A stretch of 64,000 nt of DNA, from assembly GCA_015064735.1 (NCBI GenBank), contig SVRP01000001.1:124001-188000 (forward strand), written 5' to 3'. Source of the DNA: Oscillospiraceae bacterium. GTDB taxonomy: Bacteria; Bacillota; Clostridia; Oscillospirales; CAG-272. The notes beneath the pieces are model-generated. The model was not told the origin of the DNA, did no database searches, and was given only the letters and a program-made list of their open reading frames with translations. Shown here one piece after another: positions 5,298 through 53,343 of the stretch; the first letter of the stretch is position 1; each line of letters starts with the position of its first letter. Both the position numbers and the translations under genes were made by a program.

Positions 5298-5555
5298 ATG
5301 ATTATCAAGAATATCAAATCGAAGATCATCGGCATCGGAAAGACGGTGCTGATGCCTGACGAGTCCTTGCCTATCAGCAAGGAAATTGCAGAGAGTGCCG
5401 CTGTTAAGGCTTACGTTCGCCTTGGCTTCGTTCAGCTTATCGAAGAGAAGGTTGAGGCTCCCGTAGCCGAGACCGTTGAAGAGACTGCTGAGGAGACCAC
5501 GGAAGCTCCTAAGCCTGCTCCCAAGAAAGCTCCCGCAAAGGCGAAAGCCGAATAA
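5298..5555 (+). CDS. hypothetical protein, Ala/Pro/Lys-rich C-terminus
   Basis: ORF 5262-5555; ATG at 5298 follows GGAGGTAAAGAA. Confidence 0.6.
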   Translation: MIIKNIKSKIIGIGKTVLMPDESLPISKEIAESAAVKAYVRLGFVQLIEEKVEAPVAETVEETAEETTEAPKPAPKKAPAKAKAE

Positions 5556-19542: not shown

Positions 19543-20607
19543 ATGACAGATCTTGAAGTTGCCGTTCAGCTCTTGGGCGGCGAAACCAACAAAGTCATCT
19601 ACGACGATGTGGGTATGCCCTCCATTATGGTTCGTTTTGACAAAGGCAATATCGCCGATGTTATCACGGGCGGTTCGGAGAACACGCACCCCGCATTCTC
19701 GGTAGATAATGCAGAAAAAGCCGCATTCTGGTATTCCAAATATCAGAACGTGGCAATCAGATGTGCGGATGGCTTGTACAGAGCTTATTCGCTACCCTTG
19801 CAGGATCCTAAAACGGGCATCAACTTCGATGTTGCAAGAGGATACTGCGAGAACAAGGGCAACGGTTGGCACATTGCAACCAACGCTGAATGGGCTTGGA
19901 TTGCCCTTCAGTGCAGAAAGAACGGCTTTATGCCGAGAGGTAACAATAACTACGGCAAGGATCATTCGAGACCTGACGAGAAAGGTATCGTTACCTACAC
20001 CTACATTGACAATGGGACGCTCTACAACGGAAGAGTTGCTACGGGCTCCGGTCCTAAGTCTTGGGCTCATAACAACGATGCAAGCGGTGTGTGGGATTTG
20101 AACGGCAATGTTTACGAGTGGATGGGCGGTTACAGAACCGTAGCTGGAGAAATCCAGATTATCCCTTACAACAACGCCGCAAACAAGCTCAATCCGCAGA
20201 CGGTTGACAGCACTCTCTGGAAGGCGATTATGCCTGACGGTTCTCTCGTAGATCCCGGCACGGCAGGAACCTTGAAGTGGGATTATGCAAACAGCAAAAT
20301 CACGCTTGCAACCGAGTTCACATTGCAGGAAGACGCCTACAAGTCAACAAGCTTTAATGCTCTTGCACTTGCGGACGGAGTTACCTGCCCTGAGATTATG
20401 AAGGCTCTCGCTCTGTTCCCCGCAGATAGCGGAAATCACGGAGGCGACTACTTCTATATGAACAACGGTGCCGCAGAGCGGTTCGCCTCTCGTGGCGGTA
20501 GCTGGAGCGGCGGTTCCTACGGCGGTGTCTTCAACTTGCTTGGCAGCAATGCCCGTTCCCATACGCATCACAACTTCGGCTTCCGCACCGCTTTTGTAGA
20601 ACTGTAA
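19543..20607 (+). CDS. DGR target protein 1 (FGE-sulfatase/C-type lectin-fold variable protein)
   Basis: 354 aa; FGE-like core (GWHIATNAEW..., GVWDLNGNVYEW) ending in RGGSW...NARSHTHHNFGFRTAF; VR1 near stop. Confidence 0.92.
   Translation: MTDLEVAVQLLGGETNKVIYDDVGMPSIMVRFDKGNIADVITGGSENTHPAFSVDNAEKAAFWYSKYQNVAIRCADGLYRAYSLPLQDPKTGINFDVARGYCENKGNGWHIATNAEWAWIALQCRKNGFMPRGNNNYGKDHSRPDEKGIVTYTYIDNGTLYNGRVATGSGPKSWAHNNDASGVWDLNGNVYEWMGGYRTVAGEIQIIPYNNAANKLNPQTVDSTLWKAIMPDGSLVDPGTAGTLKWDYANSKITLATEFTLQEDAYKSTSFNALALADGVTCPEIMKALALFPADSGNHGGDYFYMNNGAAERFASRGGSWSGGSYGGVFNLLGSNARSHTHHNFGFRTAFVEL
20478..20586 (+). repeat. DGR variable repeat VR1
   Basis: Ungapped 705-bp-offset alignment to TR 21183-21291; 15 mismatches, all at TR adenines. 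Confidence 0.95.
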
Positions 20608-20628
20608 ACTGTTCGCTGTTAAACTGAT

Positions 20629-20650
20629 GGGGTGGGCGGTAGCCCGCCCT
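20629..20650 (+). promoter_or_regulatory. hairpin downstream of VR1 (GGGGTGGGC-GGTA-GCCCGCCCT)
   Basis: 8-9 bp stem (including G:T pairs) with 4-nt loop; analogous hairpin follows VR2. Confidence 0.75.
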
Positions 20651-20674
20651 ATCTTTTAAGGCTATGGAGATGCT

Positions 20675-21148
20675 ATGGAAAACGAAGAAATCCAAATGAA
20701 TAGCCCCAACCGTCGAGACGACCAAAAGGCGTTTATCCTCAAAGAGCGGATTGCCGATATGTATAGATACGGCAAGAAGATTGTGGATAGATTTCCCGGT
20801 CGAGACAAGGAATTGGCAAGCGAAATAAGGCAGTCGATGCTGACGATGTTCCGACTTGTCGTCAAAATCGAGAAGAAATATTACAAGAAGTCCACATTGC
20901 AGGAGTTGGATGAGGAACTGGAGGTTTTGCGGCATCTCGTAAGAATTGCCGCAGACAAAGATTATTATGATCAGGAGGTTCCAAAGAAAGATAAGAACGG
21001 CAACAAGGTATATGACGAGCAAGGAAAGCTCATCACTGTATCTGTTTCTCCGCCTCTTTCCCTGCATAAGAAATACGTGTGGAACAGTCAATATTTAGAT
21101 GAGATCGGCAGATTGATCGGAGGTTATTTGAACCACCTGAACAAGTAA
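20675..21148 (+). CDS. avd: DGR accessory variability determinant (Avd)
   Basis: 157 aa helical protein between target gene and TR/RT; Avd-like sequence (ERIADMYRYGKKIVDRFPGRDKELASEIRQSM). Confidence 0.85.
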   Translation: MENEEIQMNSPNRRDDQKAFILKERIADMYRYGKKIVDRFPGRDKELASEIRQSMLTMFRLVVKIEKKYYKKSTLQELDEELEVLRHLVRIAADKDYYDQEVPKKDKNGNKVYDEQGKLITVSVSPPLSLHKKYVWNSQYLDEIGRLIGGYLNHLNK

Positions 21149-21181
21149 GCCGTTTTCATAGGGACGAGTCTATTTTATATT

Positions 21182-21297
21182 AGCGGTTCGCCTATCGTGG
21201 CGGTAACTGGAACAACAGTTCCAACAACGGTGTCTTCAACTTGAATGGCAACAATGCCCGTTCCAATACGAATCACAACATCGGCTTCCGCTCCGCT
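21182..21297 (+). repeat. DGR template repeat TR
   Basis: Adenine-rich AAC/AAT codons; aligns without gaps to VR1 and VR2; lies between avd and RT. Confidence 0.95.
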
Positions 21298-21448
21298 CTG
21301 CGTCTGGCATACCTACGATACGAATGGCTCTCTACGGAGACCGAAAAGTGTCAGGCCCAAAGGGACTCGCCGCCGTTCCGCAAGGAGAAAGAGTAAATTG
21401 CCGAGAAGACGGAGACGCCCCGCTCGGCTCATTCTTTTTTTAAGGTTT

Positions 21449-22765
21449 ATGGAAAACGAATACCAAATAGAACAGTACGTCGAGGGTATGTCTGTCCTCA
21501 CCGATGTATATGACAAGATGTGTTCCTACGAAGACCTCGAAATCTCGTATCGAGAGGCTCGTAAAGGTAAACGATACAGACCTGAAATCCTCAAATTTTC
21601 AGATAAGCTGGAAACGGGGCTGGATCTGCTTCTGTTTGAATTAAACGAGCAGGTCTATGAGATGGGTAGATACAGAATGTTCTACGTTCACGAACCGAAG
21701 CTACGGCTCGTGATGTCGATTCCGTTTCGTGACCGTATCGTTCAATGGAGCATATATCGGTATCTTTTTCCGTTCTATGACAAACAGTTCATCGAAGACT
21801 CGTATGCTTGCAGAAAAGACAAAGGCTCACACGCCGCTGCCGACAAGTTGCAGTATTGGCTTCGTCAAGCTCACCGAAAGGAACTCGAAAACCCCGACAA
21901 GAAATGCTATTATCTGAAGCTCGACATCAGTAAGTATTTCTATCGTGTCAATCACGAGATCCTGCTTGACATTCTGCGTGTACGTATTCACGATGAGAAG
22001 ATGATGACGCTACTGGAAAGGATTATCAACAATCCTAACCAGAAGTTCGGTCTTCCCGCTGGCTTCAGCCCGGAAGATTGTCCGTATGAAGATTGGCTCG
22101 ATGATACGGGTATGCCTATCGGCAACCTCACATCGCAAATGTTTGCGAACATCTATCTCGACCAGCTCGACCAGTTCTGTAAGCACACCCTCGGAATCAG
22201 CCACTACATACGGTATATGGACGACGTTATCATTCTATCGGAAAGCAAGGAGGAACTGCACCGATGGAAAGATTGCATCGAACGATTCCTTAATGAATGT
22301 CTCGCTCTCAGCTTGAATAACAAGACAGCTATTCGACCGATAACTCTCGGTATCGACTTTGTAGGCTACAAGATATGGGCTACCCATAGAAAGTTAAAGA
22401 AGTCAACCGCACGGAAGATCATCCGTAAAGTCAAGGTGATATGCTATCAGTTATCCATAGGCGAGATGACAAAGGATGAATTCAAGAGGAGAGCCGCTTC
22501 GTATCACGGCATCCTCATTCACTGTAACAGCCACGGGCTCTGCACCGAGCTGAACAGGATCTACTGCTCCTACGTGAAAACGCTGGAGCAAAACGGCATT
22601 GGACTATCCCAAGTAGTTGTGCCTGAACCAAAAGAAACCAAAACGGAGGTACAGACAGTTGAATGCCATCGAAACAATCGACCGCCTTTGCGAAGTTGTG
22701 AAGATGCAAGCCGAGATCATCAACAGGCAGGCATTGTTCATAGCGGAGATGAGTGCGGTGGATGA
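21449..22765 (+). CDS. DGR reverse transcriptase
   Basis: ORF 21245-22765; probable ATG 21449 after TAAGG; motifs GMPIGNLTSQ and RYMDD. Confidence 0.93.
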   Translation: MENEYQIEQYVEGMSVLTDVYDKMCSYEDLEISYREARKGKRYRPEILKFSDKLETGLDLLLFELNEQVYEMGRYRMFYVHEPKLRLVMSIPFRDRIVQWSIYRYLFPFYDKQFIEDSYACRKDKGSHAAADKLQYWLRQAHRKELENPDKKCYYLKLDISKYFYRVNHEILLDILRVRIHDEKMMTLLERIINNPNQKFGLPAGFSPEDCPYEDWLDDTGMPIGNLTSQMFANIYLDQLDQFCKHTLGISHYIRYMDDVIILSESKEELHRWKDCIERFLNECLALSLNNKTAIRPITLGIDFVGYKIWATHRKLKKSTARKIIRKVKVICYQLSIGEMTKDEFKRRAASYHGILIHCNSHGLCTELNRIYCSYVKTLEQNGIGLSQVVVPEPKETKTEVQTVECHRNNRPPLRSCEDASRDHQQAGIVHSGDECGG

Positions 22766-51451: not shown

Positions 51452-51834
51452 TGTTTAGTCTCGGAGATAAGGTAAGAATCCCGTATATATCGGACCGCAA
51501 CCCTCACAATAACCAAGTGGGAGTGATTGTATGGCTCCACAAGTATCATCGTTATCCCGAAGGAAGAACGGATACCCACGAAGAAAAGTATCAGGCGACC
51601 GTCAGATATGAAGATGGTTTTACCGAGAACGTGGGAGACCTTTACCGAAAAGGAAGCGGTCTTGTATCGGAGGTAGAGCTGGTTGAAAAAATGACCGACG
51701 AGATCCTCGTGTATGACAAAGATTTTGCGGAGAGATGCAAAGAAGAAAAGCTATTCGATGTGGCTACACCGCAAGAGGTTGCAGACATTTTTCAAAAGAA
51801 CGTGAGATTTGGCGACGCGATGCTGATAGAATAA
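51451..51834 (+). CDS. hypothetical protein, last phage-type gene
   Basis: MFSLGDKVRIPYIS...; stop codon lies inside flanking repeat. Confidence 0.6.
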   Translation: MFSLGDKVRIPYISDRNPHNNQVGVIVWLHKYHRYPEGRTDTHEEKYQATVRYEDGFTENVGDLYRKGSGLVSEVELVEKMTDEILVYDKDFAERCKEEKLFDVATPQEVADIFQKNVRFGDAMLIE

Positions 51835-51991
51835 AAGAAAATTCCGCCCGAGATCCTTCACTGCGTCGCTACTCGCGGTCATTCTCGAGCGAAGCGAAGA
51901 ATCTCGAGTGGCGACTTCGTTCGAGGATGACACGGGCGGGATTCTTATATCGCATACATTACGGCGATGCGATGCTGATAGAATAAAAGAA
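51820..51991. repeat. palindromic dispersed repeat, copy 1
   Basis: CCGCCCGAGATCCTTCACTGCGTCGC...ACACGGGCGGG flanked by ATGCTGATAGAATAAAAGAA direct repeats. Confidence 0.9.
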
Positions 51992-52035
51992 CTTTTGTAT
52001 GATATAACAAAAACAAAAAGTGGTATTTATACAAG

Positions 52036-52523: not shown

Positions 52524-52964
52524 ATGTTTCACAAAATCAAAAATGTTTTTGCTCTTCCCGAATATAAGCTAAGTGTTCAGTTTTCGGAGGGAGTTACGAA
52601 GATTTATGACGTAAAGCCGTTGTTTGAAAAGATTCCGTTGTTTGCTGAATTAAAGGATAATCAGGCGGAGTTTGCTTGCGTTTCTGTGGATGTCGGTGGC
52701 TACGGTATCGTTTGGAACGATGATCTAGATCTCTCTTGCGACGAGCTTTGGGAAAACGGTGTGCGGGTTGATACACCCTTTGACGGACTGATGGCATTCA
52801 GCGATGCAACCGAGCTTTGGGGACTCAATGAAAGTACGCTTCGTAAGGCAATCACATATGGCAAATTGGTCAACGGCGTTGACGTTTGCAAATTCGGGAA
52901 ACAATGGGTCGTGTCTGTTGATGCAATGAAAAGGGAATACGGAAACGGTCATGAAAGGGTATGA
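52524..52964 (+). CDS. DUF2442 family protein with C-terminal DNA-binding-like segment
   Basis: KIKNVFALPEYKLSVQFSEGVTKIYDVKPLFEK; C-terminal LNESTLRKAITYGKLVNGVDVCKFGKQWVV. Confidence 0.8.
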   Translation: MFHKIKNVFALPEYKLSVQFSEGVTKIYDVKPLFEKIPLFAELKDNQAEFACVSVDVGGYGIVWNDDLDLSCDELWENGVRVDTPFDGLMAFSDATELWGLNESTLRKAITYGKLVNGVDVCKFGKQWVVSVDAMKREYGNGHERV

Positions 52965-53031
52965 TTACCGACTGATTTGTTCAATATTACCAATCGGTAA
53001 AATCTTATATAGCATCAGCATCGTAGATGCA

Positions 53032-53203
53032 ATGCTGATAGAATAAAAGAAATTCCCGCCCGAGATCCTTCACTGCGTCGCCACTCGCGGTCATTCTCGA
53101 GCGAAGCGAAGAATCTCGCGTGGCGACTTCGTTCGAGGATGACACGGGCGGGGTTCTTATATCGCATACATTACGGCGATGCGATGCTGATAGAATAAAA
53201 GAA
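53032..53203. repeat. palindromic dispersed repeat, copy 2
   Basis: Near-identical to 51820-51991. Confidence 0.9.
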
Positions 53204-53343
53204 ATTCTGTAGTGATCATTCAAAAATGACCCTCGGACGATTTGCGAATCGTCTTTTCGAGAAACCGGTTACATATTCACGGCAAAAGAAATTTTAAGGC
53301 ATAAAAAAACAATTCAGAGAAACGCTAAATAAGGACTTATTTG

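Follow-up and report, generated by a model that had tools for sequence, protein, structure and literature searches.

How does a diversity-generating retroelement (DGR) pick the gene that it diversifies, and what does Avd do beyond its part in cDNA synthesis? These two open questions are raised by the window, a 64,000-nucleotide (64 kb) stretch of the genome of an Oscillospiraceae bacterium, in which one template repeat (TR) faces two recipients that lie far apart.

Judged by sequence comparison, the window holds a complete DGR within a prophage, in which target gene 1 with its variable repeat (VR1), a bAvd, the TR and the reverse transcriptase (RT) follow one another and a second target gene, with VR2, lies at a distance; the parts of the DGR located below are on the forward (+) strand. 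Target gene 1 (19543-20607) encodes a C-type-lectin/FGE-like protein (PHROG 2889), and its 3' end is VR1 (20477..20592), which shares 86% identity with the TR. This identity stops with an IMH-like segment common to both (GGCTTCCGCACCGCT, 20578..20592 in VR1), which is conserved in alignment A2. Avd (20675..21148) belongs to the bAvd family (Pfam bAvd, 5.7e-19; PDB 4dwl/8ub7 by profile and fold) and is followed by the TR (21182..21297) and the DGR reverse transcriptase (21449..22765, start codon approximate; RVT_1, PHROG 1423, PDB 8ub7_A 6.6e-46). The 3' end of target gene 2 (42506-43630) is VR2 (43488..43603), situated 22 kb from the TR and 82% identical with VR1 in register. Of the 16 differences between VR1 and the TR, 15 fall on TR adenines, as do 15 of the 17 differences between VR2 and the TR, and VR1, VR2 and the TR are the only matches in the whole 2.1 Mb genome. 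All features expected of a DGR are present, namely a DGR-type RT, TR and VR copies differing at TR adenines, and Avd.

Target gene 2 is not within the DGR cassette; a PemK/MazF-like protein (44126-44644) is encoded two genes downstream of it, and the neighborhood of VR2 (42506-44644) differs from the tail region. Three IMG/VR contigs (L004, L005 and L006) carry an RT that is 100% identical together with the same VR1 downstream flank; from these sequences, the prophage or a close relative occurs in several metagenomes. An A-rich element is present in five copies of 46-85 nt each (24512, 31954, 36956, 40668 and 48392) and reads TTTTGAAAAATATTTGAAAAA...CTATTGACTTTTG, the longer copies extending to TATAATAAAGTAAAG; by its sequence it resembles a strong promoter, present repeatedly and preceded by an A-rich tract. 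Direct repeats of 186 nt, 95% identical, occupy 51814-51999 and 53026-53211 and enclose an ORF (52524-52964).

An initial annotation of the window had described a tetraloop hairpin downstream of each VR, and its letters and coordinates are exact at both sites: GGGGTGGGC-GGTA-GCCCGCCCT after VR1 (20629..20650) and GGGGTGGCT-GATA-AGCCGCCCC after VR2 (43647..43668), each directly preceded by AAACTGAT. Both stems consist of nine pairs around a 4-nt loop and are G+C-rich, with 8-9 bp if one T.G pair is counted; at VR1 an extension to 12 pairs is possible (20626-20653). The compensatory changes claimed for the stems are likewise present, with two pairs altered on both sides between VR1 and VR2 (G-C to C-G and C-G to T-A) and the outermost pair altered on one side (G.T to G-C). 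Folding of the flanks as single-strand DNA gives z values of -5.1 for VR1, -4.3 for VR2 and +0.5 for the TR. A search of both strands of the 64 kb for GNNA hairpins with a 4-nt loop and no fewer than 7 pairs, at least 4 of them G-C, gives only three, two of which are the VR1 and VR2 hairpins.

For comparison, DGR loci were gathered from viral contigs, bacterial genomes and named phages by RT similarity, with no use of the hairpin. TR and VR were located via adenine-biased repeats with a script of our own, and clustering of the flanks gave 146 clusters. A hairpin of at least 6 pairs with a GRNA loop within 115 nt occurs after the VR in 91/146 clusters and after the TR in 1/146; the same structure was met in 11/2920 dinucleotide shuffles (0.4%), in 13/2572 stretches taken at random from these loci and after 25/2110 of their other stop codons, and the reverse-strand form of the loop in 0/146 VR flanks. 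The earlier statement that nothing comparable follows the TR is thereby upheld for the GRNA hairpin, although an RNA fold places a different, weaker and bulged hairpin, with a TACG loop, after the TR (21325..21343). Hairpins with a YNNG loop (TACG, CAAG, CACG) are found 18-23 nt after the TR in 51/146 clusters, with variable but paired stems, and probably belong to the DGR RNA spacer, by which RT-Avd is recruited; Rfam returned no family above the gathering score in 20400-21500.

When 34 closer relatives were aligned by sequence only, the structure seen at VR1 was paired in 96.1% of cells, as compared with 42-58% in slid controls; these relatives were picked for RT closeness and a detected hairpin, a selection effect of which the comparison with TR flanks and shuffles in the 146 clusters is free. 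Covariation among homologues, the absence of which had been named in advance as refuting the BPP-1 reading of the hairpin, is found at every position of the stem, with two-sided changes at 9/9 pairs. The inner seven pairs contain 8 G.T and 0 A.C mismatches, which identifies the sense strand as the constrained one. Of 121 relatives, 99 have T or C as the third base of the loop and 116 have C-G as closing pair, the T-A pair at VR2 being an exception. Loop and closing pair are unlike those of RNA GNRA loops and, as far as sequence can tell, fit the stable DNA tetraloop d(cGNNAg), a class named by Nakano et al. 2002.

The counterpart of these hairpins is found in phage BPP-1. According to Guo et al. 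2011 (PMC3240598), phage DGR hairpins have a G+C-rich stem of 7-10 bp and a 4-nt GRNA loop at a flexible distance of 4-34 bp from the VR; the BPP-1 stem matters by its structure and the loop by its sequence, and nuclease tests showed a DNA hairpin. In a 2026 reconstitution of BPP-1 in E. coli (PMC12875486), deletion of the stem-loop severely impairs homing, of which some remains. Like the BPP-1 element, the hairpins of the window lie downstream of the VR, have no counterpart after the TR and keep their pairing with free stem sequence. The initial annotation had read them as the BPP-1 counterpart, and location, stem length, 4-nt loop, VR-versus-TR asymmetry and covariation bear this out; it had overlooked that GGTA and GATA both match the BPP-1-type GRNA consensus on the sense strand. 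Differences from BPP-1 are the T-A closing pair at VR2, the presence of two VRs with a hairpin each, a full periodic array in the spacer, and the distance, which measures 36 and 43 nt here from the end of TR/VR identity (mostly 28-47 nt in relatives) as compared with 4 in BPP-1 and the published range of 4-34, the paper defining the VR end differently. Because of the BPP-1 experiments a role in homing is assigned to these structures, and the VR1 and VR2 hairpins are almost certainly homing elements, as predicted. The hairpin itself is a further member of the known BPP-1 type, and the apparently new part of the site is the array that precedes it.

This array, four ACTG words between IMH and hairpin, first became visible on aligning relatives; the initial annotation had quoted its last copy as AAACTGAT and missed its periodicity. 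After VR1 (20601..20626), four NCTG units have their CTG at 20602, 20609, 20616 and 20624, and after VR2 (43619..43644) four ACTG units have theirs at 43620, 43627, 43634 and 43642, with a spacing of 7, 7 and 8 in both cases. On either strand of the 64 kb, four-unit CTG chains occur at VR1 and VR2 alone, and when the genome was scanned with an exact-match pattern, the two VR flanks were the only hits. The stop codons of both target genes lie inside the array, TAA at 20605-20607 for target gene 1 and TGA at 43628-43630 for target gene 2. Since the two genes thus end in different frames within it, the array is conserved as nucleic acid; a peptide repeat was rejected on this ground and because 7-8 nt does not correspond to a whole number of codons.

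A triplet-recurrence test that assumes no motif was applied to the 45 nt after the VR. Compared with dinucleotide shuffles, identical triplets recur with z values of 46 at lag 7, 23 at lag 8, 15 at lag 14 and 33 at lag 15, an excess that is absent in TR flanks and at 56-100 nt after the VR; 32 held-out ACA1-like clusters, collected afterward by means of the RT of a Pseudoalteromonas phage, gave the same lags. Chains of at least 4 CTG at 6-9 nt are present in 77/146 VR flanks and 0/146 TR flanks, with about 0.5 expected. If YTG or CCG is allowed, 104/146 VR flanks have at least 4 units, 362/368 gaps are 7 or 8, and in most cases 1-3 nt separate the end of the last unit from the stem. Named carriers of the array include VHML, ACA1 (with ATTG units), an Aeromonas phage, BalMu-1, Lagaffe and Dulem virus 37. 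By the strict definition 48/172 Avd-bearing DGRs are without an array, partly since some use TTYA or ACCG units. The array is very likely a functional part of the target site.

Several variants were observed among the more distant loci. A group including Pseudomonas and Burkholderia phages (L448, L449, L453, L454, L457, L306 and L307) has two to three TTYA/TTTG units with a spacing of about 8 nt after the VR, an array variant that is mostly without a GRNA hairpin. In phage nd4 (L311), an array-like TCTG-TCCTCTG-ATCTCCTG starts at 5342 after a VR that is internal to its coding gene. The L078-like clade (L401-L426, L074 and L075), in which no Avd is recognizable, has neither array nor GNNA hairpin, with one exception for the hairpin, and must mark its targets by other means. 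Pairing of the array with the DGR RNA was considered in view of a single CAGT in several TR flanks and was rejected, as ACA1 with its ATTG units keeps CAGT (compared by eye). The parts of Guo 2011, DiGReF, MetaCSST, Roux 2021 and the archaeal, tentaclin, multicellular-bacteria 2024 and 2026 BPP-1 papers that were covered do not mention the array; this coverage is partial, and an earlier description is possible.

In BPP-1 the nearest equivalent is the IMH. Its 21-bp directionality part, as described in Guo et al. 2011, is VR-specific and separates the shared G+C-rich segment from the hairpin, as does the array here. It contains CCTG-ATT-CTTG and has only two units with a spacing of 7, CCTG being absent from the TR copy, whereas the array of the window has four units in a register of 7, 7 and 8 and lies wholly outside the TR/VR repeat. 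The BPP-1 spacer substitution SpM4, which retains wild-type activity in the same paper (PMC3240598), altered only 4 nt after the two units.

The letters of the unit vary among relatives, and all copies in an array switch together (ACTG, TCTG, YTTG); the base preceding YTG is alike within an array at 0.636, compared with 0.375 on permutation. About 12-14 changes of unit type were counted on the RT and Avd trees. When all protein columns were compared as predictors of the unit, Avd residue 66 (numbering of the window, where codon 66 is GAG for Glu at 20870-20872) carried 1.22 of 1.43 bits, followed by 0.89 for the next Avd column and 0.68 for the best RT column. The 54 array-bearing loci with Asn66 have 166 TCTG versus 13 ACTG units, the 46 loci with Glu66 have 150 ACTG units, Gln66 goes with mixed units, and small residues at 66 go mainly with YTTG. 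In simulations of unit evolution on the RT tree, 0/300 runs reached the value observed for the best Avd column (maximum 0.75), nor did any of 400 on an Avd tree built without column 66 (maximum 0.99). Because the signal is confined to a single column, physical linkage of avd and VR1 is no explanation for it, and VR2, 22 kb from avd, has the ACTG expected for Glu66. In additional novel loci, the two with Asn and a YTG array (L443 and L445) fit TCTG, Ser cases are mixed and do not fit, and another Asn clade has TTYA units. At the level of sequence, the correspondence is firm for the pairs Glu/ACTG and Asn/TCTG in the main clades, whereas for Gln, Ser and elsewhere it is loose.

In an AlphaFold2 model of Avd (mean pLDDT 92.6), residue 66 ends helix 2 and stands beside a conserved basic/aromatic loop, KKYYKK. 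The model matches BPP-1 Avd both alone and within the bRT-Avd-RNA complex, and RT and Avd of the window are homologous to that complex (PDB 8ub7-8ube, Avd 4dwl) by sequence profile and fold; BPP-1 Avd has Gly at the position of Glu66 and is without the KKYYKK loop. Covariation and model together make it somewhat likely that Avd reads the array, presumably by binding to it. Presence of the array was rejected as an independent proof of dependence on Avd, since the contrast of 124/172 versus 0/20 goes back to only about three independent Avd changes on the RT tree.

Instead of Avd, a host factor such as primase, a recombination protein or a single-strand binding protein might recognize the array, its covariation with Avd being indirect. 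CTG, the commonest unit core, is also the template trinucleotide at which E. coli DnaG primase starts. In the 2026 study (PMC12875486), DGR homing in E. coli depends on replication direction, in line with such a factor, but perturbation of DnaG is without effect. A fixed host factor would hardly tolerate concerted switches of the unit to TTTG, ATTG, ACCG or TTYA, and the strict spacing of 7-8 nt as well as the better prediction of the unit by an Avd residue than by any RT column also speak against this explanation, which is unlikely.

Alternatively, array and hairpin could be recognized by Avd or the RT within the mRNA of the target and either bring the DGR RNA-protein complex to a transcribed target or regulate the translation of avd. 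The constrained sense strand suits RNA as well as single-stranded DNA, and Avd does belong to an RNA-protein complex (8ub7). Nevertheless, the pyrimidine at the third loop position is unlike stable RNA GNRA loops, the prevailing C-G closing pair is that of the stable DNA class cGNNAg (Nakano 2002), and VR2 has both elements with no avd after it. The BPP-1 nuclease results cited above from Guo et al. 2011 also indicate a DNA hairpin, and a role in mRNA appears quite improbable.

Another proposal concerns the hairpins alone, which could be intrinsic terminators of the target genes unrelated to homing, the alternative already offered in the initial annotation. G+C-rich stems just after stop codons are in keeping with it, the VR1 stem is followed by ATCTTTT and listed as terminator-like, and a loose U-tract test is passed by 35/95 relatives versus 4/95 control windows. 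The U-tract at VR1 is weak, however, and the VR2 stem is followed by TATAAAGA, which has none; a T4 run stands at the stem base in only 15/121 relatives. Termination moreover has no need of a loop fixed as G-purine-N-A, which is rare after other genes of the same loci, and the 24 nt between the VR1 hairpin and the start of avd would hardly accommodate a separate promoter for avd. Termination thus fails as the sole explanation, for which the chances are very slight, and may be a second role at some loci.

That the likeness downstream of VR1 and VR2 reflects merely a recent duplication of the gene end, as the 80% identity of the spacers might suggest, has a negligible chance and is refuted by the family data, in which stem letters differ with pairing kept and the same architecture recurs in more than 100 unrelated flanks, maintained by compensatory change.

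We therefore return to a composite target site consisting of the IMH-like VR end, the NCTG array and the GRNA hairpin as 3' boundary, in which the hairpin serves homing and the array is read by Avd; this joint reading is reasonably likely. The sense strand would be exposed during replication, for example on the lagging-strand template, and would fold the hairpin, which might pin an open state of the site for cDNA integration. The Avd pentamer of the RT-Avd-RNA complex could meanwhile contact successive NCTG units, probably along the single sense strand, with the end of helix 2 (Ile65-Glu66) and the basic loop KKYYKK as the contact surface, after which the cDNA would pair with the IMH end of the VR. 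In this scheme the array would mark the VR rather than the TR as recipient, and the same machine would find the second VR 22 kb off; transfer would be one-way, as the TR has neither array nor hairpin. What we infer here is that Avd physically binds the array, that it reads DNA and not RNA, which step this serves and in what order the steps run, and the integration step of BPP-1 is called unknown in the 2026 study (PMC12875486). TRAP, an 11-mer ring, binds RNA with GAG/UAG repeats. The likeness is one of analogy only, an oligomeric ring facing evenly spaced short units on one strand, and no homology is claimed. We give an even chance to the wider proposal that the array is a general mark of the VR as recipient versus the TR, read by the ring-shaped Avd via a one-residue code (Glu66 for ACTG, Asn66 for TCTG), and that the BPP-1 IMH is a shortened form of it.

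A periodic element that is restricted to the VR and whose letters track one residue of Avd offers a specific handle on the choice of recipient. If the reading is true, it would tell engineers what, besides IMH and hairpin, has to be transplanted so that a DGR of the Firmicute or Vibrio type can be aimed at a new gene, and it would account for one TR serving targets 22 kb apart.
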